Part shown: in pieces, positions 2,132-18,433 of the stretch | Layout of the letters: the number at the start of each line of letters is the position of its first letter | How positions within the stretch are numbered: position 1 is the stretch's first letter | Program-made: the position numbers and the translations under genes | Notes under the pieces: generated by a model | Told to the model about the DNA's origin: nothing | The model's input: only the letters and a program-made list of their open reading frames with translations | Database searches by the model: none | NCBI RefSeq assembly: GCF_000158175.1 | Contig: NZ_DS999411.1 | Location: 3,124,749-3,188,748 of the forward strand | Origin: Luminiphilus syltensis NOR5-1B | GTDB taxonomy: Bacteria; Pseudomonadota; Gammaproteobacteria; Pseudomonadales; Halieaceae | DNA length: 64,000 bases | Direction: 5' to 3'

Positions 2132-3433
2132 ATGTTTGGCTTGCGCGCGCCAGAAATCAGTACCGGGCACACCGGCTCCTATTACGCCGCCAGCGTGAAT
2201 CGCAAGACCGATTACCCTCGCCTGGAAGGGGATCATACGGCAGACGTGGTGGTGGTCGGTGGTGGTTTTACCGGCGCCAATCTCGCGCTGGAACTGGCGG
2301 AACGTGGCATGGATGTCGCGCTGGTTGAGGCCCACCGCATTGGCTGGGGCGCCAGCGGCCGCAACGGCGGACAAATCATTGGGGGCTTGGGCCATGACCC
2401 GGAACGCTTCGTCAAAACCATTGGTGAGGAGGGCGTCAAGGCCATTTATGGAATGGGCCTTGAGGGCCGTGAGATCATTGCCGAGCGTGTTGAGCGCTAC
2501 GGTATCGAATGCGATCTCAAGTGGGGCTACTGCGACGTAGCGCTCAAGCCCCGGCATATGAAGCAGTTTGCCGAATGGCGGGATTTCGAGAAGCAGATCG
2601 GTAATCCCCATACGTATCGTCTTCTCGACCGCGATGAACTCAAGCACTACGTCAATTCTGACCGCTATCTCGGTGGGCTTTACAACGACGGCAATGGACA
2701 CATACACCCCCTGAATCTGTGTATCGGCGAGGCCGCGGCACTCGAACAGCTCGGCGGTAGAATCTTCGAGCAATCCAAAGTGACCGACATCGAGTATGGA
2801 GCGCGTACCGTCATCCGAACCGAGCAGGGGAGTATTTCGGCCAAGCGCGTAGTGCTGGCAGGTAATGCCTACATGGGCGGCCTGGTTCCAAAACTGGCGA
2901 CCCGCGTTCTGCCCTCCTGCAGCTCGGTCATCGGCACCGAGCCACTGTCTGAGGAAATGGCCCGTGAAATCCTCCCGGGGGATGTGGCGGTCTGCGATCC
3001 GCGCACGGCCTTGGACTACTTCCGACTCTCCGGTGATAACCGACTGCTGTTCGGCGGGCTATCCAACTACACCGGGCTTGAACCTCGCGACCTCCACGGC
3101 GTTATGCGTAAAAAGTTGGCGGCCGTCTACCCACAGCTCGCTGACGTCCGCATCGATTTCGCCTGGAGTGGCTGGATCGGAATTGGTATCAACCGCATGC
3201 CCCAGCTGGGCCACCTTTCCGATAACGTGAGCTATATCCAGGCGTACTCAGGCCACGGCGTTTGCCCCACGCACATCATGGCGCGAATTACCGCAGAGAT
3301 GCTGGCGGGGGACCCACGACGCTTCGATATTATGGCGAGTATCCGTCACATGCCCTTCCCCGGCGGAAAGCTATTGCGGCGGCCGGGCCTGGCTTTGGGT
3401 ATGGCCTATTACAAACTTTTGGACGCGCTTTAA
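2132..3433 (+). CDS. FAD-dependent oxidoreductase, DAO/PuuB-like (gamma-glutamylputrescine oxidase type)
   Basis: A 433-residue flavoenzyme of the D-amino-acid oxidase (DAO) fold. The dinucleotide-binding motif VVVVGGGFTGANLALELAERG is near residue 40, followed by the ASGRNGGQIIGG signature found in PuuB/OrdL proteins. The C-terminal FAD contact WSGWIGIGINRMPQLG and the YSGHGVCPTH segment are also typical. The ATG at 2132 has AGAGGA six bases upstream, while the longer in-frame start at 2060 has no such site. It is expected to oxidise the gamma-glutamylated amine made by the divergent PuuA-like enzyme to an aldehyde, releasing ammonia and peroxide. It is followed 28 bp later by a CrtI-like gene on the same strand, probably co-transcribed. 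Confidence 0.82.
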   Translation: MFGLRAPEISTGHTGSYYAASVNRKTDYPRLEGDHTADVVVVGGGFTGANLALELAERGMDVALVEAHRIGWGASGRNGGQIIGGLGHDPERFVKTIGEEGVKAIYGMGLEGREIIAERVERYGIECDLKWGYCDVALKPRHMKQFAEWRDFEKQIGNPHTYRLLDRDELKHYVNSDRYLGGLYNDGNGHIHPLNLCIGEAAALEQLGGRIFEQSKVTDIEYGARTVIRTEQGSISAKRVVLAGNAYMGGLVPKLATRVLPSCSSVIGTEPLSEEMAREILPGDVAVCDPRTALDYFRLSGDNRLLFGGLSNYTGLEPRDLHGVMRKKLAAVYPQLADVRIDFAWSGWIGIGINRMPQLGHLSDNVSYIQAYSGHGVCPTHIMARITAEMLAGDPRRFDIMASIRHMPFPGGKLLRRPGLALGMAYYKLLDAL

Positions 3434-3461
3434 AAACCGCTGACCTAGCGAGGAGAACCCA

Positions 3462-5042
3462 ATGAAGCAAGACTACGATGTCATTGTCATCGGTGGCGGA
3501 CACAACGGATTAACCTGCGCTGGGTACCTCGCGGGCGCGGGTCAAAAAGTGCTGGTGCTGGAGCGGCGCGATAAAGTGGGCGGCGCGGCAGTTACCGAGG
3601 AGTTCCACCCCGGGTTCCGCAACACCGTGTACTCCTACTCCGTAAGCTTGCTGCACCCCGCGGTGATCAAGGACCTGCAGTTGGAGGAGCACGGCCTGGA
3701 GATCATGGAACGCAGCGCGGGTAGTCTCAGTCTGCTCGAGGGCGATACGCTGCAGCTCACCCGCGACGGCGAACAGGCGAAGCGCGAGATTGCGCGCTTT
3801 TCAAAGCGCGATGCCGAACGCATTGATGCCTTCGAAAACGAAATTGAAGTGGTGGCCAAAGCGGTCCGTGCCCTGGCCATGGAAGCCCCGCCCAACATGG
3901 GTGGCGGCCTGCGCGATCTCTGGAATCTGGCAAAAGGTGGCAACGCCCTGCGCAAACTCGACGCCAAACATCAGATGGTGCTCGGGGAGTTAATGACCCG
4001 CTCCCTCGGTGACCACCTCGATTCCTGGTTCGAAGGCGAGGCACTCAAGGGTCTTCTCGGCTTCGAGGGCATTATTGGTAACTTTGCCGATCCCTACCAG
4101 CCGGGAACCGCCTACGTCCTGCTTCACCACGCCTTCGGCGAGGTCAATGGCAAAACCGGTGCGTGGGGTATAGCACGCGGCGGCATGGGCGCCATTAGCG
4201 ATTCGATGGCGGCATCGGCCAGGGCCCGCGGTGTGACCATAGAGACCAATGCAGCGGTCGAGAAAATCCTGGTAGAACGCGGGCATGCCTGTGGCGTTGT
4301 GACCGAGGACGGCCGAGAGTTCCGCGCCAAGCAAATCGCGGCCAATGTGCATCCGCAAATACTGTTGAACAAGCTTTTGGGGGACGAGCCCAAGGCTCCT
4401 GACGATCAGCGTCGGATCGATGCTTACAGAAGCCATTCGGCGACCTTCCGCATGAACGTGGCGATATCCGAACTCCCACAATTTACCCAGATGAAAGGTA
4501 AGGGCGAATTTCACTTTGAAGGCGCTATCGAACTGTGCCAGTCACTGCCCTATATCCGCGATGCTTATGACACCGCTAAATCTCACGGGTGGTCACAGCG
4601 ACCTATTGTGTCGATGCAAATACCCAGCACCCAGGATGACACCCTCGCACCGAAAGGCGCACACGTCGCCAGCTTGTTCTGCCAGCATTTCCAGCGCCAT
4701 CTCCCGAACGGGCAAAACTGGGATGACGTCAGGGAACAGGTTGCCGACCACGTCATCGATGCGATTGACCGACAGGCGCCCAACTTCAAGGCTTCGGTCG
4801 TCGGTCGCCAGATCAAAACGCCCCTCGATATCGAGCGCGATCTGAATATGGTGGGTGGTGATATCTTCCACGGCGCGCTGCATCTTGATCAGTTTTACTC
4901 GATGCGCCCCATTCCCGGACACGCCGCGCACAAGATGCCTACGGAAGGCGTTTACCTCTGCGGCTCGGGTGCCCACCCCGGCGGCGGTGTCAGTGGCCTT
5001 CCCGGACGAAATGCCGCCAAGGTAATCCTGCGGGAGCGCTAG
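3462..5042 (+). CDS. NAD(P)/FAD-dependent oxidoreductase, phytoene desaturase-like (PYROXD2 type)
   Basis: A 526-residue flavoprotein of the CrtI/amine-oxidase superfamily. It opens with DYDVIVIGGGHNGLTCAGYL (Rossmann FAD motif) and KVGGAAVTEEF, and ends with the family signature GVYLCGSGAHPGGGVSGLPGRNAA. The GAHPGGGV ending is typical of the PYROXD2-like branch rather than true carotenoid desaturases, and no crtB or crtE is nearby. The start has AGGAG seven bases upstream. It follows the PuuB-like oxidase closely and ends 4 bp inside the convergent MFS gene. A second, clearly related copy lies at 6271-7857. The substrate is unknown; oxidation of an amine-derived or lipid-like intermediate is possible. 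Confidence 0.85.
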   Translation: MKQDYDVIVIGGGHNGLTCAGYLAGAGQKVLVLERRDKVGGAAVTEEFHPGFRNTVYSYSVSLLHPAVIKDLQLEEHGLEIMERSAGSLSLLEGDTLQLTRDGEQAKREIARFSKRDAERIDAFENEIEVVAKAVRALAMEAPPNMGGGLRDLWNLAKGGNALRKLDAKHQMVLGELMTRSLGDHLDSWFEGEALKGLLGFEGIIGNFADPYQPGTAYVLLHHAFGEVNGKTGAWGIARGGMGAISDSMAASARARGVTIETNAAVEKILVERGHACGVVTEDGREFRAKQIAANVHPQILLNKLLGDEPKAPDDQRRIDAYRSHSATFRMNVAISELPQFTQMKGKGEFHFEGAIELCQSLPYIRDAYDTAKSHGWSQRPIVSMQIPSTQDDTLAPKGAHVASLFCQHFQRHLPNGQNWDDVREQVADHVIDAIDRQAPNFKASVVGRQIKTPLDIERDLNMVGGDIFHGALHLDQFYSMRPIPGHAAHKMPTEGVYLCGSGAHPGGGVSGLPGRNAAKVILRER

Positions 5043-9856: not shown

Positions 9857-10117
9857 TTCCTCCTCCGCTTCGATTCATCTGCCCGTCGACCAAGTCGAAA
9901 ACCGACTTGCAGCCCACACTCACTCGGTAGGTTGTGTCCAGTCCGCCGCGACGAAGCATCGCTGGCGCAGTGAAAACTCAACGGGTTATTCTAGAGTGGT
10001 AACGAAAAGGCATTTGAAAAAAAAGTGGTCGGCACTTCGCATTCATAGCCCATGGCCGATATTCGGGCCGACTGAGTAAAGTTACGATTGAAAGCACACT
10101 CGACAGGAGGGGGATGT

Positions 10118-10735
10118 ATGCGCATTACCGTGAATACCGTTTTCATGGGATTGATCGTGCTCACAGGAGGTTGGCTAATGCCCGCCGTCAGCTCCTCCGC
10201 AGGACAAACAGGGGCCACAATCGCCCATGATTCAGTCAGTGAAAAGCCCTACCTACAGCGTGGCAAAGCCATTGCTGCCGACACAGGAAATGCATTGGGC
10301 GCCAAATTAATCGAGGCTTTGGGGGTCGGCGGACCGACGCACGCCATCGACTTTTGTAATCTCAATGCCGAATCGATTACCCAGAGCATCGCTGAAAAAC
10401 ATCGGGTAGGGGTGCGTCGGGTTAGCGATAAGCCACGCAACCCCAATAACGCGGCGTCAGAGTCCGAGCTCGACTATATAAACGCGAGTAAAGCCCTGCT
10501 TGCGAAGGGGGAGGCACCCGCGCCCTGGATACTGGAGCAACCGCACTCAATAACCGGCTATTACCCCATTGTCGCAGGCGCGATGTGCCTCCAATGCCAT
10601 GGCACACCGGGAAAAGACGTCTCAGCGGCCACGGCTGCACTACTGAATCAACTCTACCCCGAAGATCAGGCGCTGGGTTACAGCGCCGGTGATCTGCGTG
10701 GAGTCTTTGTTATCACTATGCCGAACGCTGAGTGA
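10118..10735 (+). CDS. Periplasmic DUF3365 (Tll0287-like) mono-haem c-type protein
   Basis: A 205-residue exported protein. It has an N-terminal signal peptide (MRITVNTVFMGLIVLTGGWL, cleavage near SSA) and a DUF3365 domain with the family features RRVSDKPRNPNN (~residues 100-112) and a C-terminal CLQCHG haem-c attachment site (~166-171). The domain is found in periplasmic redox or gas sensors and as free-standing proteins. The ATG at 10118 follows AGGAGGGGG, while the longer frame from 10088 lacks a ribosome site and would bury the signal peptide. It is convergent with the DUF2254 membrane protein. A role in periplasmic redox sensing is likely but not proven here. Confidence 0.8.
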   Translation: MRITVNTVFMGLIVLTGGWLMPAVSSSAGQTGATIAHDSVSEKPYLQRGKAIAADTGNALGAKLIEALGVGGPTHAIDFCNLNAESITQSIAEKHRVGVRRVSDKPRNPNNAASESELDYINASKALLAKGEAPAPWILEQPHSITGYYPIVAGAMCLQCHGTPGKDVSAATAALLNQLYPEDQALGYSAGDLRGVFVITMPNAE

Positions 10736-10789: not shown

Positions 10790-12118
10790 TTATGATGCCT
10801 GCGTGAGACGAACCAGTTTTTTAAATCTTCGCCTTACCGGTGCTCTGTCGTGCTCAGGATAGTCCTGTCGCTCCATTTGTTCCCAGAGCCTCTCGCCTTG
10901 CGTGCGCAGGGTTAACAATCGCTCGGGACGGTCAGTGCACATTGCCAGACGATTCAGGGAGTCAAAAAGCCGTTGGTAAACCTGTAGATTACTCCCACTA
11001 AATTGACGCAAAGGGGAATACACCGCATCGGCGACTGCCGCAAAGTCAAGGGTGGTCACCAGCAAACGACACTTGCCCTCCTTATCAAGAACCGTCGACC
11101 CAGGCAGAGCGGCATCCACGATTTCTGCCAGCGCAAGAGTTAGCCAGTCGATACAGGTAATGGCTGTGCCGGGGTCATTGATACCCGTCGATAATGCGCG
11201 GGCGGCAATCTGTTGGATCTGTGTAATTGGAAAATTAGGGTCCTGAATGGGCGTTCTTACGGGCCCCAGGCGGATCGCCTCCTCGATACCCAATTTGCCT
11301 TCATCAATATCAAAATTGCGGGCCTTGAAAAGCGTAAACAGCTCAGCGCCACGAACCACGAAATCCCCGGGCCGTACGCGCAGTATGGCCATGGCTTCGA
11401 GTGTCGCCAGCTGCTCGGCGATAGCCGGAATATCCGTTGTCTGGACGTAGCCCTCATAGCCCGACCGAATCACGATGGGGATTCGGTCGCGAGCCCTGCG
11501 ACGCCATTGAGCCGACCCATGAAGACGATTGGCCTGTTCAGCGACCTCACAAAGCCGGCGCATGTCCTGCCTCAACTGAGTACCCAGCCGCTGAATAAGT
11601 TGATCCGCCTGAAGATCAGAGGCGGTTCGATGAATAAATGCAATAAACTCAATCAGTGCGGCCAGCGCGAGCAGCAAAGCTATGATGACCGAAAAACGCG
11701 GGTGATCTCCGTCGTGCAAGGCGACAGAAATTACCAGCGCGTAAACAGCGGTCGCGAAAAAAAGACCCAACGACAGCTTGCTTCGGCTGTCCTCGAGAAA
11801 GTGTCGCAATACCTTTGGTCCGTACTGACCCGAGGTAAGCGTCAGGGCAACCATCGTCACCGAAAAAGAGACCCCGCCAACACTGAGAACACTGGTGATC
11901 AGTACGCCCAACAGACCGCGCGCCGCATCGAGTTCAATCTGCAGCGTGGGCAGGATCAGCAAGCAGGCCTGGCAGTGTCGATCGACCTGAAGAGCAGTAA
12001 CGGCCAGCCCTATTGCCGCCACGCAGAGCCCAATGGGTACTACCCAGATACTCGTGCGTATCCAGTGCCAGCGATACTTTATTGGCGGAGAATCGAGTGG
12101 AGGCGTGGCCTGACTCAA
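10790..12118 (-). CDS. DUF2254 family membrane protein
   Basis: A 442-residue protein with an N-terminal membrane half: hydrophobic segments at ~23-45, 65-90 (LLGVLITSVLSVGGVSFSVTMVALTLTSGQYGP), 115-133 and 143-165. A cytoplasmic C-terminal half contains the family motif INDPGTAITCIDWL (~295-310). The length and order match DUF2254, whose function is unknown. The only in-frame start before the first helix is a TTG at 12118 with a weak ribosome site. It stands in the stress region between a haem protein and a small lipoprotein. Confidence 0.8.
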   Translation of the reverse strand: MSQATPPLDSPPIKYRWHWIRTSIWVVPIGLCVAAIGLAVTALQVDRHCQACLLILPTLQIELDAARGLLGVLITSVLSVGGVSFSVTMVALTLTSGQYGPKVLRHFLEDSRSKLSLGLFFATAVYALVISVALHDGDHPRFSVIIALLLALAALIEFIAFIHRTASDLQADQLIQRLGTQLRQDMRRLCEVAEQANRLHGSAQWRRRARDRIPIVIRSGYEGYVQTTDIPAIAEQLATLEAMAILRVRPGDFVVRGAELFTLFKARNFDIDEGKLGIEEAIRLGPVRTPIQDPNFPITQIQQIAARALSTGINDPGTAITCIDWLTLALAEIVDAALPGSTVLDKEGKCRLLVTTLDFAAVADAVYSPLRQFSGSNLQVYQRLFDSLNRLAMCTDRPERLLTLRTQGERLWEQMERQDYPEHDRAPVRRRFKKLVRLTQAS

Positions 12119-12694: not shown

Positions 12695-14053
12695 TTGCCG
12701 CCGTCCGACGACTACCGCAATCCTGCCCCCCTCGAAAAACCGGTTGAAAAGTTGCTCACGCCATTGGAGCGATTTGTCAAAAGCCAGACGTCTTCCGGCA
12801 TTTTGCTCGCGCTGGCGGTCACGCTGGCGTTGTTTCTGGCGAATTCGTCTTATGCGGATGTTTACACGACGCTGAAACACCTCTCGCTGTCGATCTCGCT
12901 GGGTGACTGGGCAGTGAGCATGTCGCTTCGACATTGGATCAATGACGGTCTAATGGTGTTCTTTTTTTTCCTGCTTGGGCTTGAGATAAAGCGCGAAGTC
13001 CTCGCCGGCGAGTTGCGCGATGTGCGCCAGTCCGGGCTCGTTTTCTGCATGGCAGCCGGTGGCATGATATTCCCCGCCGTGGTTTATCTAACAGTTAACG
13101 GCATCACCGGGGCCGACGCCCTGAGGGGTTGGGGTATACCCATGGCAACGGATACCGCGTTCGCTCTCGGTATCCTGGCGGCGCTCGGTGCCCGGGTACC
13201 GCACGTAGCGCTGGTGATTCTTTCCGCACTTGCGATTGTCGATGATATCGGTGCCGTGTTGGTAATCAGTATTTTCTACTCTGAGGGTATCGTGCTCGGT
13301 GATCTGTATAGCGCAGCCGCATGTTATTTCGGGCTCATCGTTTTAAACCTGACGGGGCACCGACGGCCACCGCTTTATATCTTACTGGGAGTCGCCCTAT
13401 GGTGGTTTGTTTTACAATCCGGGGTCCATGCGACAACCGCCGGCATTCTCACCGCCCTGGCCGTGCCGGCGCGCCCCTATGCCTCCAAGGAGCTCTTTAA
13501 AAAGCGATTACCGCGGATTATCCAGCGCTTCAAGAAAGCAGATGATCCCGAGCAAAGCGTGCTGGAAACACAAGAGCAAGAACAGATGGTTGACGAGGTT
13601 CGGCAAGTGGCTGACAGCACGCTCGCACCCTTGCAGCGCTGGGAAACGTCGATAAGTACCACGGTCATGTTGATGATCGTCCCGGTATTTGCCTTTCTTA
13701 ATGCCGGCGTTGCTCTTCCCGGGTCCGCCGAAGCCCTGCTGGAATCTCCCGTATCCATTGCCGTTGCTGCTGGACTCGTAGTTGGCAAAGGGGTTGGCAT
13801 CGTGAGTTTTGCCTGGTTCGGTATCCGCCTGGGCATCGGTACGCTTCCCAAAGATCTGAACTTTCATCATGTCACCGGGCTCGCGCTGCTTGCGGGTATT
13901 GGCTTCACGATGTCGCTCTTTATCAGCTCGCTGGCATTCGAACAAACCGAGGCCCTACAGGACGACGCCAAGATCGGCATCCTGGTCGGCTCACTGGCCG
14001 CCGCAATTATCGGTACCACGATGCTGCTTGTCGCCAACCAAAAAGCCAAGTAA
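12695..14053 (+). CDS. nhaA: Na+/H+ antiporter NhaA
   Basis: A 452-residue inner-membrane antiporter exchanging Na+ (or Li+) for protons, used for pH and sodium homeostasis. The catalytic Asp pair lies in LALVILSALAIVDDIGAVLVIS (~residues 165-186), and other NhaA blocks are present: DGLMVFFFFLLGLEIKRE, ATDTAFALGILAALG and GLALLAGIGFTMSLFISSLAF. The start is a TTG at 12695 with GAGAGG eight bases upstream; no ATG fits. It is longer than the ~390-residue E. coli protein because of a hydrophilic insert (~270-320, with KKADDPEQSVLETQEQEQ) in the cytoplasmic region. It is convergent with dps across a terminator. Confidence 0.95.
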   Translation: MPPSDDYRNPAPLEKPVEKLLTPLERFVKSQTSSGILLALAVTLALFLANSSYADVYTTLKHLSLSISLGDWAVSMSLRHWINDGLMVFFFFLLGLEIKREVLAGELRDVRQSGLVFCMAAGGMIFPAVVYLTVNGITGADALRGWGIPMATDTAFALGILAALGARVPHVALVILSALAIVDDIGAVLVISIFYSEGIVLGDLYSAAACYFGLIVLNLTGHRRPPLYILLGVALWWFVLQSGVHATTAGILTALAVPARPYASKELFKKRLPRIIQRFKKADDPEQSVLETQEQEQMVDEVRQVADSTLAPLQRWETSISTTVMLMIVPVFAFLNAGVALPGSAEALLESPVSIAVAAGLVVGKGVGIVSFAWFGIRLGIGTLPKDLNFHHVTGLALLAGIGFTMSLFISSLAFEQTEALQDDAKIGILVGSLAAAIIGTTMLLVANQKAK

Positions 14054-14130: not shown

Positions 14131-14700
14131 TTAGGCATTGGAGGCCGCGCGGGCCGCTCCTTTTTCGGTGGTTGCCTTCTGCGTCGGAAGCTCGCCGGTT
14201 GAGGATTCCAAATGGGCTCTGATAAACCATTGGAACTGCTCAAGGTCTGCAAGATCGCCGGTCAGTATGTCCTCCGATACCGGGTCATGCTTGGCAAGCT
14301 TCTGCAACGTTTCGCGGTGGTCTGCATTCACACCCGAGTAGACTTTATCGAGCGCGCCCAAGTGCTCCACAACGGTGGCCTTACCCAGTGAGTAGTCGTC
14401 CCAGCGACGAACCGAGCTCACCGCACCTGGTGTACCCCAAGGCTCACCCCCAAGGGTCGCAATCCGCTCTGCGATCGTATCAGTCATTGCCCTGACGGCA
14501 TCCACCTGCGGGTCAAGCATTTCATGCACACCGATAAAGTTGGGGCCAATCACGTTCCAGTGAACATGCTTCAGCGTCATCGACAGATCAATCAATGCCA
14601 CCATTCGATCGCCAAGCAGTTTGATCGCCTCCTCGGCGGATGCGTCCTTGATACCCGGCACGGTGAAATTCGCGATCTTCTGTGCTGAATTACTACTCAT
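14131..14700 (-). CDS. dps: Dps-family DNA-binding ferritin-like protein
   Basis: A 189-residue member of the Dps family, which forms 12-mer shells that oxidise and store iron and protect DNA in starvation and oxidative stress. The intersubunit ferroxidase residues are present: LKHVHWNVIG (His), followed by GVHEMLDPQVDAVRAMTDTIAERI (His, Asp, Glu). The C-terminal tail (TQKATTEKGAARAASNA) is weakly basic and could contact DNA. An AGGAGG-like site precedes the ATG. A sigma-54 promoter at 14770-14786 gives a leader of about 59 nt, and a strong terminator follows. Sigma-54 control, rather than OxyR or sigma-S, would be unusual. Confidence 0.93.
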   Translation of the reverse strand: MSSNSAQKIANFTVPGIKDASAEEAIKLLGDRMVALIDLSMTLKHVHWNVIGPNFIGVHEMLDPQVDAVRAMTDTIAERIATLGGEPWGTPGAVSSVRRWDDYSLGKATVVEHLGALDKVYSGVNADHRETLQKLAKHDPVSEDILTGDLADLEQFQWFIRAHLESSTGELPTQKATTEKGAARAASNA

Positions 14701-14769
14701 TGTTCCTCCTTATCCAGTTTCAGGTAGCGACTGCGCATCCAAGGCGCGTCGCGGCTGGACCCTGTATTA

Positions 14770-14786
14770 AGCACAGACCGTGCCAA
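14770..14786 (-). promoter_or_regulatory. Sigma-54 (-24/-12) promoter of dps
   Basis: Read on the minus strand the element is TTGGCACG-GTCT-GTGCT. The GG (14784-14783) and GC (14772-14771) doublets have the required spacing, and only one base differs from TTGGCACGN4TTGCT. Transcription would start near 14759, about 60 nt before the dps ATG. Confidence 0.7.
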
Positions 14787-15068
14787 CCGATGATTTAGTG
14801 CGGTTAATCCGCCTGTTTGCGCCTTGGCTGGGCTGTGCGCCTTACGAAAAAGACCGAAAGATATTCGGAATTACTGCAACATCTGCAGACCTTGCGCATT
14901 TCTTGCAGACTTTCGCGAAGCATTCTGCAAAACGCGCAGGCTGTCCGCCGTTTCGCAAACTATCGAAAGGCTTTAAATGGCAGTGGGGCGCGGGTTAACC
15001 GCTGCGTTCCAGCGGTATCGTGGGCGCGGGCTTCAATCAGCAGATACCTTCTCCGTTGTGAACTGCCA
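14787..15068. other. Intergenic region between the dps promoter and the 15069 gene
   Basis: About 280 bp with no gene I can support. Short open frames here have no ribosome site and no recognisable product. The stretch holds several TTGCAG/CTGCAA copies, and at 14903-14930 an imperfect palindrome centred on TTCGCGAA with TTGCAG and CTGCAA ends. Binding sites for an activator would be expected in this region, upstream of the sigma-54 promoter of dps. Confidence 0.4.
14903..14930. promoter_or_regulatory. Imperfect palindrome, possible activator-binding site upstream of dps
   Basis: The ends TTGCAG and CTGCAA flank a central TTCGCGAA palindrome, with a two-base asymmetry between the halves. It lies about 145 bp upstream of the predicted dps transcription start, which is a typical distance for an enhancer bound by a sigma-54 activator. 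Assignment to the local activator is inference. Confidence 0.3.
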
Positions 15069-15512
15069 CTACTGCAGATCCTGGGAAGTCACTATACCCA
15101 AAGCAATACGTCGATTGGTCCCTTCCAACTGCCGGGTTAAATCACCCACCAACTCGGTAAATTCAACCGGCGGGGCGGTCTCTGCGGCGGCACTCAGCGC
15201 TTCGACAATCGCATTGTTGAGGTCAATCGTCTGTCGCATCGCAGCCTCCGTCGACGACGGGCTGGACCACTCGGCATGACCCGGTTCAAACTGCAGACGT
15301 CGTTTTACTACTCCATCGGGAGCCTCCTCAGCACATCGCTCCAGACCCTGCGCAATATTCGCCTGCCTTTTGGCAACCCATTCCAAAAGCTCGGGTAAGA
15401 CCGTGTGTGACACCTGTTGATTGGCCTTTAGATAGGCACAGCAGTCATTGCACTGCTGCGCAAAACTTGAGAGTACCTCGCCAGTTGTCACGAATGTTTC
15501 GCTGTTGTTCAT
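15069..15512 (-). CDS. Hypothetical helical protein, 147 residues
   Basis: A soluble, mostly helical protein without a signal peptide. It starts with VLSSFAQQCNDCCAYLKAN, which has three Cys within five residues, and has later helices (ELLEWVAKRQANIAQGLERC; EAAMRQTIDLNNAIVEALSAA). The periodicity would suit a four-helix bundle. I do not recognise a family, and the metal ligands of ferritin-like proteins are not obvious. It lies 149 bp downstream of the sigma-54 activator on the same strand, and upstream of dps, so it is probably part of the same stress group. Confidence 0.6.
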   Translation of the reverse strand: MNNSETFVTTGEVLSSFAQQCNDCCAYLKANQQVSHTVLPELLEWVAKRQANIAQGLERCAEEAPDGVVKRRLQFEPGHAEWSSPSSTEAAMRQTIDLNNAIVEALSAAAETAPPVEFTELVGDLTRQLEGTNRRIALGIVTSQDLQ

Positions 15513-15661
15513 TCTTGCCTCCTAGGGCACTGGTGAGCGCCATGTGAATGGATTAACCGCACCGCCAACGTTCGCGGTAGGGCTCTGACACGGGGGCGTT
15601 CTGTCGCTTCCTCTCACCGTGGTTGCTGTCGTGCCAGAGACTCCGAGACGAACCGCAAAAT

Positions 15662-17059
15662 TCACGCCAATGGCTGCTGCTCTTTGGGCGACGAGGCCGT
15701 TCGGTATTCTTTCAGCCGGTTATAGAGCGTCCGCACACTGATACCCAGACGATCGGCGGCCCTCTTTTTATCGTCATCACTATCGCGCAGTGTCTCCAAC
15801 ACCATGATTTTCTCGACATCGCGCAGTGATGTACCCACCCGCAACGAGACGTACTGCCCGTTGTCCGCATTGATAGAGGCCTTCTCTTCGCTGGGCACAC
15901 CGGGCTCTGAAGCGTTGCCAAGCCCCAGGTGTTGCGCATCGAGCGCGCCCCCACTAACGCGGCATGCGCTGTAAACGGCGTTGCGCAGCTGTCGTACATT
16001 ACCAGGCCAGTAATACTCGCCTATAAGGCTCTCAGCTTCGGGCGTCAGCTCACAGGCCATACTCCTGTCTTCGTTAAACTGCCCGATAAAGAACCGCGCG
16101 AGATTCAATGCATCATCTTCTCTATCGCGGAGTGGAGGGACCTCAACGGGAATCTGGTTCAACCGATAAAACAAATCCTCCCTCAGCACACCCTCCTCTA
16201 CGGCTCGCTGGGGGTCCCTGTTGCACGCGGTGATCACCCTCGCATCGCATCGAAGATCCTGCTCACCGCCCACACGGCGGAAATAACCCGTCTCCAGCAC
16301 CCGAAGCAGTGCTACCTGGGCAGACTCGGGCATCTCGGTGACTTCATCCAACAAGAGGGTACCGGCGCCCACGCGCTCAAACAGGCCAGCGTGGGCTTTG
16401 TGAGCCCCGCTGAAACTGCCCTTCTCGTGGCCAAACAACTCACTCTCAACAAGCTCGGCGGGTAACGCACCGCAGTTAACACCGTCGAAGTTGTGTTCAC
16501 TCCTCGCGGAATACGCGTGAACCGAACGGGCCACCAATTCCTTACCCGTGCCACTTTCTCCAAAAACGAATAAGGTGGCATCGGAGCTCGAAGCCTTACG
16601 CAGCAGCCGAAAAAGACGCTTCATCGCCGGTGAACTACCGTATAACAGTCCAAACTGATCGAGCCGTGGGTCGGGGGTATGATCCAGCGCGGCAGCGGAA
16701 CACGCCACTTCTTTAGCGCGGTCGATGATCAACTGCTCGAGGAAATCGCTATCGATGGGACGTCGCAAAAATATCGCATTCCCCCTGGCGAATAATTCGG
16801 AGAAGCGCTGCTGCTGAGCAGACTCACCAAAAAGAATCAGCTCACAATCATCGTCGAGCGCATGCAAATAATGCTCAAGCTCGTTCGGGAGCGCATCTGC
16901 GTCGACGATCAGCAATTCAGGTAATCGGGAATTGCTCGCATCCAACAGCGTGGGCAGCGAATCAGGAGTTAGCTGATGCGCTGTAAAACGATGGCGCTCA
17001 AGCTGACTATTGACCAGCTCTGATTCCTCGGTCGCCGGCACGAGAAAACTTGCTCGCAT
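15662..17059 (-). CDS. Sigma-54-dependent transcriptional activator with degenerate receiver domain
   Basis: A 465-residue bacterial enhancer-binding protein. The AAA+ domain (~residues 140-375) has Walker A GESGTGKE, a GSFSGA loop (the GAFTGA variant that contacts sigma-54), Walker B LLLDEV, and REDLFYRLNQIPVEVPPLRDR. A Fis-type helix-turn-helix is at the C-terminus (KKRAADRLGISVRTLYNRLKEY). The first ~110 residues resemble a receiver, with LLIVDAD at the phospho-acceptor strand. However, the acidic pair near the N-terminus is missing and the usual Lys in the last strand is Arg (FLRRPID). No histidine kinase is nearby. I chose the ATG at 17059 because GAGGG lies just upstream; a TTG or ATG at 17083/17080 is possible. 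Confidence 0.9.
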   Translation of the reverse strand: MRASFLVPATEESELVNSQLERHRFTAHQLTPDSLPTLLDASNSRLPELLIVDADALPNELEHYLHALDDDCELILFGESAQQQRFSELFARGNAIFLRRPIDSDFLEQLIIDRAKEVACSAAALDHTPDPRLDQFGLLYGSSPAMKRLFRLLRKASSSDATLFVFGESGTGKELVARSVHAYSARSEHNFDGVNCGALPAELVESELFGHEKGSFSGAHKAHAGLFERVGAGTLLLDEVTEMPESAQVALLRVLETGYFRRVGGEQDLRCDARVITACNRDPQRAVEEGVLREDLFYRLNQIPVEVPPLRDREDDALNLARFFIGQFNEDRSMACELTPEAESLIGEYYWPGNVRQLRNAVYSACRVSGGALDAQHLGLGNASEPGVPSEEKASINADNGQYVSLRVGTSLRDVEKIMVLETLRDSDDDKKRAADRLGISVRTLYNRLKEYRTASSPKEQQPLA

Positions 17060-17225
17060 TTTTACCCTCAAGTGAAACATCAAGGCTTACAGGGTAGCGA
17101 TATCGTCGCGACGACTGCAAATCCTGCATGATTCCTAGTGAAAAATGTGCAAGATGCGTATGAAAATTAGCGTCGATTCAAGCACCCCTCCCATAAAGGC
17201 CACTATTCATGCCATTCCGATCGGT

Positions 17226-17242
17226 TTGGCACGCTCGTTGCT
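17226..17242 (+). promoter_or_regulatory. Sigma-54 (-24/-12) promoter of the OB-fold gene
   Basis: The sequence TTGGCACG-CTCG-TTGCT matches the sigma-54 consensus at every defined position, with GG (17228-17229) and GC (17240-17241) correctly spaced. Transcription would start near 17253, about 60 nt before the ATG at 17314. The gene for a sigma-54 activator is divergent directly next to it. Confidence 0.85.
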
Positions 17243-17313
17243 CTACTCGTGGCAGAGGCTCGCGTCACACGCCGTCCGACGCCTCGTACAGATACTCGCA
17301 ACAGGGAGGAATT

Positions 17314-17994
17314 ATGAAAACGCACAACGCAAAACATACACTGACACCGCTTGTACTGAGTGCGGCAGTAGCGGCCAGCAGCGCTGTGATGGCAGATACC
17401 CCCTACACGAAGCCCGATGGCAGTTTCGTCAGTATAGGTGGCACCGTCACCTCACCCACCGCTGACACGTTCGTCCTCGATTATGGAGACGGTACGATTC
17501 TCGTCGAGATGGACGACTGGGATCGCTATGGCGATGCCTACGGTTTACTTGATGGCGACAGAGTGACGGTCTATGGCCGAATCGACGATGACTTCTTTGA
17601 AATGGCAAAGATCGAGGCGGGTTCGGTTTACGTTGAGAATCTGAATACCTTTTTCTACGCCGATAGCGACGATGAAGAGGGCAGCGTAATGCCCAGCGCA
17701 TCCTGGACTACTGCCGCGCCCGTCGTGGTAAGCGGATTTACGCTTCGCGGCGAAGTGACTGAAGTGGATACCGAAGATCAGGAATTCGTCGTACAAACGG
17801 GAACCGATGAAATCACGGTGCAAACCGATCAACTGGGTTACAACCCTACCGACAATCATGGTTTCCAGCGCGTCGACGAAGGTGACTGGGTCAGTGTCTC
17901 AGGAAGCATTGATTACCAGCTCTTCGACGGACAGGTGTTGTCGGCTAGTCGTATCACCACGCTGATCGACAACGCACCCGCCGAAAATTCATAA
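17314..17994 (+). CDS. Secreted protein with two OB-fold-like repeats
   Basis: A 226-residue exported protein. Its signal peptide spans ~1-28 (HTLTPLVLSAAVAASSAVMA, cleavage before DTPY). The mature part has two similar beta-rich units: GGTVTSPTADTFVLDYGDGTILVE...GDRVTVYGRID (~45-95) and RGEVTEVDTEDQEFVVQTGTDEITVQ...GDWVSVSGSID (~140-205). Both recall bacterial OB-fold (BOF/YgiW-like) proteins, but the tandem arrangement and acidic composition differ from E. coli YgiW. It is strongly acidic. GGGAGGAATT precedes the ATG, a sigma-54 promoter lies 73 bp upstream and a terminator follows, so it is a single-gene unit. A periplasmic stress role is inferred from family and context. Confidence 0.7.
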   Translation: MKTHNAKHTLTPLVLSAAVAASSAVMADTPYTKPDGSFVSIGGTVTSPTADTFVLDYGDGTILVEMDDWDRYGDAYGLLDGDRVTVYGRIDDDFFEMAKIEAGSVYVENLNTFFYADSDDEEGSVMPSASWTTAAPVVVSGFTLRGEVTEVDTEDQEFVVQTGTDEITVQTDQLGYNPTDNHGFQRVDEGDWVSVSGSIDYQLFDGQVLSASRITTLIDNAPAENS

Positions 17995-18061: not shown

Positions 18062-18433
18062 ATGACACAGCGCAATACATACGATACGTTCATGAACACC
18101 TTGGACACGGTCAATTCGGCTATTGAAGAACACGCCGATACCGCTGTTTTCGGAAAGGTACTGGAAATGGCGAAGACACGGCTTGACGGGGAACGCCTGG
18201 GAGTCGCAGTTTACGAGGAAGATCCAGACGCACCGTTTGACTACTACACGGTACAGTTCAACAAAGGGCGTCTGGAATTGAAGGCGCGCGGCAAGGCATC
18301 ACCAACCGTTGACTGGAAAGTGTCCCAGGAATATCTGTCGGCGATCAGTGAGAATCCAGACGCGTACATCGCCAATCCAGCGAAGTTGGATATCGACTGG
18401 CTCAAAGCTCGTGTCGGGATGGACATCCACTAG
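18062..18433 (+). CDS. Small soluble protein, possibly SCP2-like
   Basis: A 123-residue protein with AGAGGAG seven bases before its ATG. The N-terminal half is helical; the second half (YYTVQFNKGRLELKARGKASPTVDWKVSQEYLSAISENPDAYI) resembles the strand-helix pattern of SCP-2 sterol-carrier proteins, in which a ligand-free beta sheet is followed by threshold-type helices. The resemblance is visual only. It lies directly behind the terminator of the OB-fold gene, so it depends on read-through or a promoter I cannot see. It is convergent with putA. Confidence 0.6.
   Translation: MTQRNTYDTFMNTLDTVNSAIEEHADTAVFGKVLEMAKTRLDGERLGVAVYEEDPDAPFDYYTVQFNKGRLELKARGKASPTVDWKVSQEYLSAISENPDAYIANPAKLDIDWLKARVGMDIH

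Follow-up and report, generated by a model that had tools for sequence, protein, structure and literature searches.

Candidate sigma-54 promoters of dps and a secreted OB-fold gene flank a divergent enhancer-binding protein gene in Luminiphilus syltensis

RESULTS

Two -24/-12 elements around an activator gene

The window analyzed here, a 64-kb stretch of the Luminiphilus syltensis NOR5-1B genome, contains a candidate sigma-54 stress module made up of three genes: dps (14131-14700, minus strand), a gene for a sigma-54 enhancer-binding protein (EBP; 15662-17059, minus strand) and a gene for a secreted protein with two YgiW/YdeI-like stress-tolerance OB folds (17314-17994, plus strand). The first and the last are the predicted targets. 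The dps product matches Ferritin (4.6e-22) and just reaches the cut-off of the NF006975 Dps model (114.6 bits, cut-off 114). The OB-fold gene has a Shine-Dalgarno (SD)-preceded start at 17314 and its product a signal-peptide-like N-terminus. Against TIGR00156 this protein scores 2.9e-8 over two stretches (33.8 vs 108.15 bits), so that by the model it is related but not a member, and its match to DUF5666 is below the cut-off. Gene starts were assigned by simple rules throughout.

Both predicted targets are preceded by a -24/-12 element, at the positions that the original prediction had given. The OB-fold element, TGGCACGCTCGTTGCT (17227-17242, plus strand), matches TGGCACN5TTGCW exactly and is the sole exact match in the window. 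The dps element, TGGCACGGTCTGTGCT (14770-14785, minus strand), has one mismatch and is one of four such copies in the window. From the end of the element to the ATG there are 71 nt for the OB-fold gene (ATG 17314) and 69 nt for dps (ATG 14700); both elements thus face SD-preceded starts about 70 nt away, and they have the GG-N10-GC spacing in a TGGCAC/TTGCW context that defines sigma-54 promoters. If transcription begins 12 nt beyond the C in the -12 GC, as is the rule for such promoters, the leaders are about 61 nt for the OB-fold gene and 59 nt for dps, in agreement with the proposed length of some 60 nt. The genome encodes RpoN and, as a positive control, its glnA gene carries TGGCATGTGCTTTGCT 92 nt before the start. 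A simple consensus scan of 14690-17320 found no sigma-70-type promoter (1.3 in shuffles).

Loose matches (at most two mismatches) are at chance level in the window (38 vs 34.5 ± 5.3 in shuffles). Across the genome, a -24/-12 pattern with at most one mismatch occurs 227 times (176 in the reversed control), and the strict form TGGCACN6TGCW 21 times in 3.26 Mb (16 in the reversed control). Two of these 21 strict sites lie 2.5 kb apart, flank one EBP gene and have the correct orientation, where simple proportion predicts 0.016 strict sites per 2.5 kb. The arrangement, unlike the loose pattern counts, is beyond chance. Twenty of the strict sites were sorted by a simple rule based on open reading frames (ORFs) of at least 60 aa. 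Only three lie outside such ORFs: the dps site, L116 (with no downstream ORF) and L118 (before a doubtful 104-aa ORF); genomes and loci carry G and L numbers here. The other 17 lie inside, though some of those ORFs are perhaps not genes: L052 and L058, in ORFs of 65 and 76 aa, could be intergenic, and the OB-fold element itself was scored as inside, owing to a longer ORF start (17209) that overlaps TGGCACGCTCGTTGCT. The L058 site (G000:C1:513532-513547) stands directly after another EBP gene (512232-513353), with a 432-aa ORF starting 187 nt downstream. Within the window, a further good look-alike, TGGCAAAGCCATTGCT (10261-10276), falls inside the ORF at 10088-10735 and is probably there by chance.

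A divergent EBP with a degenerate receiver

The EBP consists of a degenerate receiver, an AAA+ domain with a GSFSGA loop and a Fis-type helix-turn-helix (HTH). Its more likely start is ATG 17059, preceded by the SD sequence GAGG (read by eye), rather than TTG 17083. The ORF is intact, and both the sigma-54 AAA+ domain (PF00158, 1.1e-59; Walker motifs GESGTGKE and LLLDE in the alignment) and the HTH (PF02954, 3e-11) are readily recognized. In the aligned receiver, the acidic pair, the Thr/Ser and the Lys are replaced, and one Asp is kept with an extra residue after it. Pfam finds no Response_reg match in this protein, which lacks most hallmarks of a phosphorylation-controlled receiver. Relatives differ in this respect: the receiver of L035 is recognized by Pfam (32.2, cut-off 30.2), and L038, L039 and L042a retain the receiver residues, so that the family spans normal to degenerate receivers. 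No histidine kinase was found among the seven neighboring proteins scanned. Since the phosphorylation residues are mostly gone and no kinase is among these neighbors, the EBP of the window is more likely to be controlled by its own level or by a ligand than by a kinase.

In a structural model made from nine sequences of the family, the N-terminal domain has the (beta-alpha)5 order, predicted there with moderate confidence (block pLDDT 56-76). The solved structures nearest to the model are those of whole or partial EBPs like NtrC1, NtrX and NtrC4 (PDB 1ny5, 5m7o, 3dzd). NtrC/NtrX-type EBPs and the PEP-CTERM-box response regulator of TIGR02915, which we take to be PrsR, share the receiver-AAA+-Fis HTH architecture and the sigma-54 activation domain. 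The EBP of the window differs from them in its degenerate receiver, in its predicted general-stress targets and in its scores, which are far below the curated cut-offs (283.9 vs 502.6 bits for TIGR02915; 279.7 vs 558.6 bits for NtrC, TIGR01818). In a tree, a 100/97 branch separates 29 chosen family sequences from eight paralogues. The sigma-54 activation domain has six strong matches in the source genome, five of them besides this EBP.

Relatives of the EBP adjoin stress genes

Conservation within the genus was uninformative. In 56 other genomes of the genus (many incomplete), no EBP match was better than 2.2e-66, the search for the OB-fold gene found nothing, and dps gave only two weak or frame-broken matches (G010, G033). 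Among the 97 genomes searched, the best EBP matches came from other genera and were 47% (G058) and 45% (G057) identical. Relatives at 37-47% identity, among them three from Thalassotalea and one from a Lysobacterales metagenome-assembled genome, often adjoin stress genes: Dps is near the EBP in two of the three Thalassotalea loci and NhaA in all three, and several other relatives have BON, DUF1328, CsbD, PRC-barrel, hemerythrin, Dps or DUF2254 proteins nearby.

These loci are also rich in -24/-12 sites placed as in the window, a site being counted when an SD-preceded start followed 8-140 nt downstream and no long ORF covered it. The first set comprised 23 loci (384 kb, including 12.7 kb of the window; L034 was excluded as a near copy of L033) and contained 29 placed sites, as against 2.7 ± 1.8 (maximum 9) with 300 column-permuted matrices; at a stricter threshold the count was 17 vs 0.36. 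For a later set, 398 genomes of the phylum were searched, 22 had a match at 1e-125, and ten unseen high-scoring loci were taken. They gave 26 placed sites vs 1.7 ± 1.4 (maximum 7; 200 permutations), and 11 vs 0.27 at the stricter threshold. Five lower-scoring loci had 12 sites where 0.56 were expected, and this excess indicates that the family has no sharp border.

Many of the genes behind the placed sites have a role in stress. A site precedes dps in three lineages, represented by the window, two Thalassotalea (TGGCATAGCTTCTGCA/T) and G307 (CGGCACGGGCCTTGCA). Others precede sodB in G063 and G308, BON genes in Thalassotalea, G058 and G089 (the last ending in TTGCC), and CsbD in G057; in G063 sites are also found before hemerythrin-like, metallothionein-like and PRC-barrel-like genes, all three below the Pfam cut-offs. 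The targets in the later loci include BON by Pfam and, by similarity or by the reading of starts, DUF1328, DUF2383, CsbD, DUF883, an L037-type lipoprotein and an OtsA-like protein.

The original prediction had also looked to conservation of the elements at orthologous genes. This holds where a family EBP and dps adjoin (two Thalassotalea and G307) and fails in G059 and G089. The dps (66%) and OB-fold (51%) genes closest to those of the window belong to G059, which has 12 EBP-like matches, none better than 7.5e-63; both of these genes lack -24/-12 elements. A scan of up to 500 nt upstream of distant homologues at 25 loci (2 OB-fold, 23 Dps; threshold 10.5) found only two weak TTGCC-ended sites (L084, L089).

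Two side observations concern these neighborhoods. In G063 a sortase gene (L042:14595-15407) near an EBP pair has a -24/-12-like site (L042:14482-14497) together with candidate enhancers. A fusion of a phosphatase-like and a diacylglycerol-kinase-like protein (named by eye) recurs near the EBP, at L204:10445-12028, L205:10843-12378, L206:12451-14004, L031:10379-11974 and L033:9238-10833.

A common palindrome upstream of the promoters

About 100 nt upstream of both promoters of the window lies a TGCA-N5-TGCA palindrome, the top palindrome of these two regions, with one copy in each. The candidate enhancer of the OB-fold gene, CTGCAAATCCTGCAT (17115-17129), is 112 nt upstream of the -24/-12 element, and that of dps, CTGCAACATCTGCAG (14874-14888), is 103 nt upstream. 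A weaker tandem partner, GCGCATTTCTTGCAG (14894-14908), lies 20 bp further upstream of dps.

In relatives, we counted palindromes exhaustively (half-sites of 3 or 4 bases, spacers of 3-11) in 24 upstream regions; in this first set 13 of 35 promoter sites were omitted by eye (two of them those of L034) and four variant -12 sites were added. The top palindrome was GTAA-N3-TTAC, with 6 occurrences vs 0.13 expected. Apart from a C/T change it is the TGCA-N5-TGCA palindrome of the window, in an identical register. A matrix made from the relatives ranks the dps and OB-fold enhancer candidates 2nd and 8th of 63,986 positions in the window, and the tandem partner 24th. The common core G(C/T)A-N5-T(A/G)C, picked after viewing both the window and the relatives, has 27 matches in 17 of the 24 regions vs 3.45 in shuffles. 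Tandem pairs of the core at 19-23 bp number 7 vs 0.014 in shuffles, and 6 tandems occur on 20 promoters vs 3 on 258 ordinary gene starts in these loci. In the later loci, where all 26 sites were used, there are 12 core matches in 9 regions vs 2.8, and none of 500 shuffles was as high; the five genomes of family f222 among them give a weaker signal (6 vs 1.9, with 9 of 500 shuffles as high).

Enhancer and promoter taken together single out the locus. A joint scan of the window with both matrices returns exactly the dps and OB-fold sites. The pattern TGCAN5TGCA-N75-105-TGGCRN7TGCW, which was written from these two sites, has two matches genome-wide, both at this locus (control 0), and the glnA promoter region has none of the core sites.

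Unlinked matches and a second rpoN

When 16 genomes were searched with GTAAN3TTRC-N40-100-TGGCAYN6TGCW, 11 matches were found in 7 genomes (control 0); four of the matches had informed the motif. Seven of the 11 are on contigs other than that of the EBP. In three Thalassotalea, such an unlinked match precedes a DUF2383 gene; G307 has one before CsbD and one before a BON gene, G268 one before a short ORF that resembles DUF1328 (E 0.0077, under the cut-off), and G058 one before the gene of an unclassified protein. This pattern is uninformative on G059, because it also gives no match in the source genome (G000), whose half-site differs.

One later locus, L210 (G692), contains a second rpoN (2388-3863, named by eye and confirmed by Pfam) with the consensus element TGGCACGAGTGTTGCT at L210:2327-2342. 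It lies within about 10 kb of two family EBPs, with OtsA-like, DUF883-like and DUF2383-like genes, and it is possible that it supplies a dedicated sigma-54 for stress genes. Two rpoN genes are present in three of the five f222 genomes; the second copy is on a different contig in G764 and about 24 kb away in G766.

Other genes near the EBP

Between dps and the EBP gene, a 147-aa protein (15069-15512, minus strand) without a family match is possibly part of the module. It gave a low-confidence four-helix model (pLDDT 58), and upstream of its gene there is only a weak -24/-12-like site, TGGCGTGAATTTTGCG (score 9.3). Membership in DUF2383 (hhalign probability 1%) and homology to a 156/160-aa neighbor in Thalassotalea (14-23% identity) were both considered and dropped. 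On the other side of dps, nhaA (12695-14053, plus strand) has no -24/-12 element. A gene for a DUF2254 membrane protein (10790-12118) has only a weak -24/-12-like site upstream (score 9.6); DUF2254 is near the EBP also in L040, L152 and L216. Downstream of the OB-fold gene, and possibly co-transcribed with it, is the gene for a 123-aa protein (18062-18433) with no significant Pfam or NCBIfam match.

DISCUSSION

The elements, their placement, their enrichment in the family and later loci and the common enhancer motif can be read from the DNA directly; binding by the EBP, dependence on sigma-54 and the inducing signal we infer. On this basis the window very probably holds a sigma-54-dependent stress module formed by the EBP, dps and the OB-fold gene. 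The EBP would bind the palindromes about 100 nt upstream of the promoters (TGCA-N5-TGCA here; GTAA-N3-TTAC/TGTA-N5-TACA in relatives), and its AAA+ domain would open sigma-54 RNA polymerase at the -24/-12 elements of the two genes, driving their transcription under some stress. That the signal is starvation or envelope stress is a guess. In other genomes, the wider EBP family may drive general-stress genes, among them those for Dps, SodB, OsmY-like BON, CsbD, DUF1328 and DUF2383 proteins, partly at unlinked positions. The original prediction of a single module of two targets and their activator is borne out in three ways: matching palindromes occur with that promoter nowhere else in the genome, the matrix from the relatives finds the same two enhancers, and relatives of the EBP adjoin Dps and NhaA (in Thalassotalea) or other stress genes with the same type of promoter.

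Several observations weigh against this module. At the locus itself, the second enhancer site of the OB-fold promoter is weak, and the half-site is GCA here vs GTA in relatives. The EBP is a divergent member of its family, with the longest branch in the tree (1.71) and no starred small clade, and its sigma-54 contact loop is GSFSGA in place of GAFTGA; this loop is found also in L035, L040 and L042b. Of the 33 scan hits in the first relatives, 20 were retained on inspection by eye and four variants added, which leaves the later-loci enhancer count as the only one free of that selection; the later loci are themselves partly non-independent (G602 and G086 share a genus), none of their 26 regions has tandem enhancers, and some of their sites precede genes with no evident stress link. 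Eight family loci (L040, L041, L043, L149, L151, L154, L157, L164) have no site, while eight paralogue loci (120 kb) have four, two of them at the stricter threshold (not permuted). Finally, G089 carries the EBP, and its dps, located elsewhere, has no element before it.

The divergence of the EBP would also suit a decaying or recently transplanted remnant, in which the promoters work, the EBP is constitutive or poor, and there is no real stress response. The long branch and altered loop, the failure to find the OB-fold gene or an orthologue-grade EBP in the 56 genus genomes, many of them incomplete, and the two weak or frame-broken dps matches there all fit such a history. We nevertheless consider it unlikely, given the strong AAA+ and HTH scores, the intact ORF and the pairing of palindromes with promoters at both genes. 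It is quite improbable that the promoters are real and serve another EBP, such as NtrC, in a nitrogen or other response. TGCA-type palindromes do resemble NtrC sites, and the genome has five other strong activation-domain matches; however, the core sites are missing from the glnA promoter region, the combined pattern stands only beside the EBP of the window, and the motif has the register seen in this EBP's relatives. Moreover, in G059, where none of the 12 EBP-like matches is close, the dps and OB-fold genes are without elements. A chance GG-N10-GC resemblance, with dps under its customary control by OxyR, Fur or a sigma-70 promoter, would account for loose matches being hardly or not enriched in window and genome, yet it is very improbable and was rejected on the placement, the enhancer pairing, the enrichment in family and later loci, the genome-unique pattern, the joint scan and the lack of a sigma-70-type promoter in the region by a simple consensus scan.

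The proposed EBP-driven module is of a known kind; within the literature covered, the content of the regulon and the enhancer code appear new. Dps, SodB, OsmY-like and CsbD-like proteins are usually targets of sigma-S, sigma-B, OxyR or Fur. The general stress regulon of RpoS (sigma-S) includes dps and osmY, and thus overlaps in gene content with the regulon proposed here. The difference is in the sigma factor: sigma-54 cannot start transcription without an ATP-driven activator, hence a tighter on/off control. PspF of the phage-shock response likewise handles stress as a sigma-54 EBP without phosphorylation control; unlike the EBP of the window, it has no receiver and its targets are the psp genes. 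A Campylobacter RpoN stress paper (PMC3196706) and papers on Borrelia RpoN-RpoS may bear on sigma-54 stress control as well. Sigma-54 control of dps had been put forward as new. A full-text literature search, with most subscription journals outside its coverage, found no report of it, nor of sigma-54 control of BON, CsbD or DUF1328 genes, and so far the claim stands; it needs qualifying in that sigma-54 control of katE is published. In this nearest case, catalase E of a Burkholderia was found to depend on RpoN2 by mutant and quantitative reverse transcription PCR; the likeness is sigma-54 control of a stationary-phase oxidative-stress gene, and the difference is that the words "enhancer" and "dps" are absent from the main text (PMC4745423). 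Likewise, dps and csbD are absent from the main text of a comparative sigma-54 survey (PMC3162934). A report on B. cenocepacia speaks on the other side: RpoN was not involved in peroxide resistance there, and RpoS was suggested for dps (PMC2830190).

Beyond the window, the loci may reflect a conserved sigma-54 general stress response of gammaproteobacterial genomes, parallel to RpoS, with a dedicated EBP family, the enhancer code TGYA-N5-TRCA and, in some genomes, a second, linked rpoN. We give this broader reading an even chance, a figure lowered because of the B. cenocepacia report. If it is correct, placing general stress genes under sigma-54 would keep them tightly off and make their control switch-like, a group of orphan sigma-54 activators would gain a function, and the pair of enhancer and -24/-12 element would provide a concrete DNA code with which to list regulons in many genomes. 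Relatives of this activator often stand beside the same set-up, and they would then represent a little-noticed route to switching on general stress genes.

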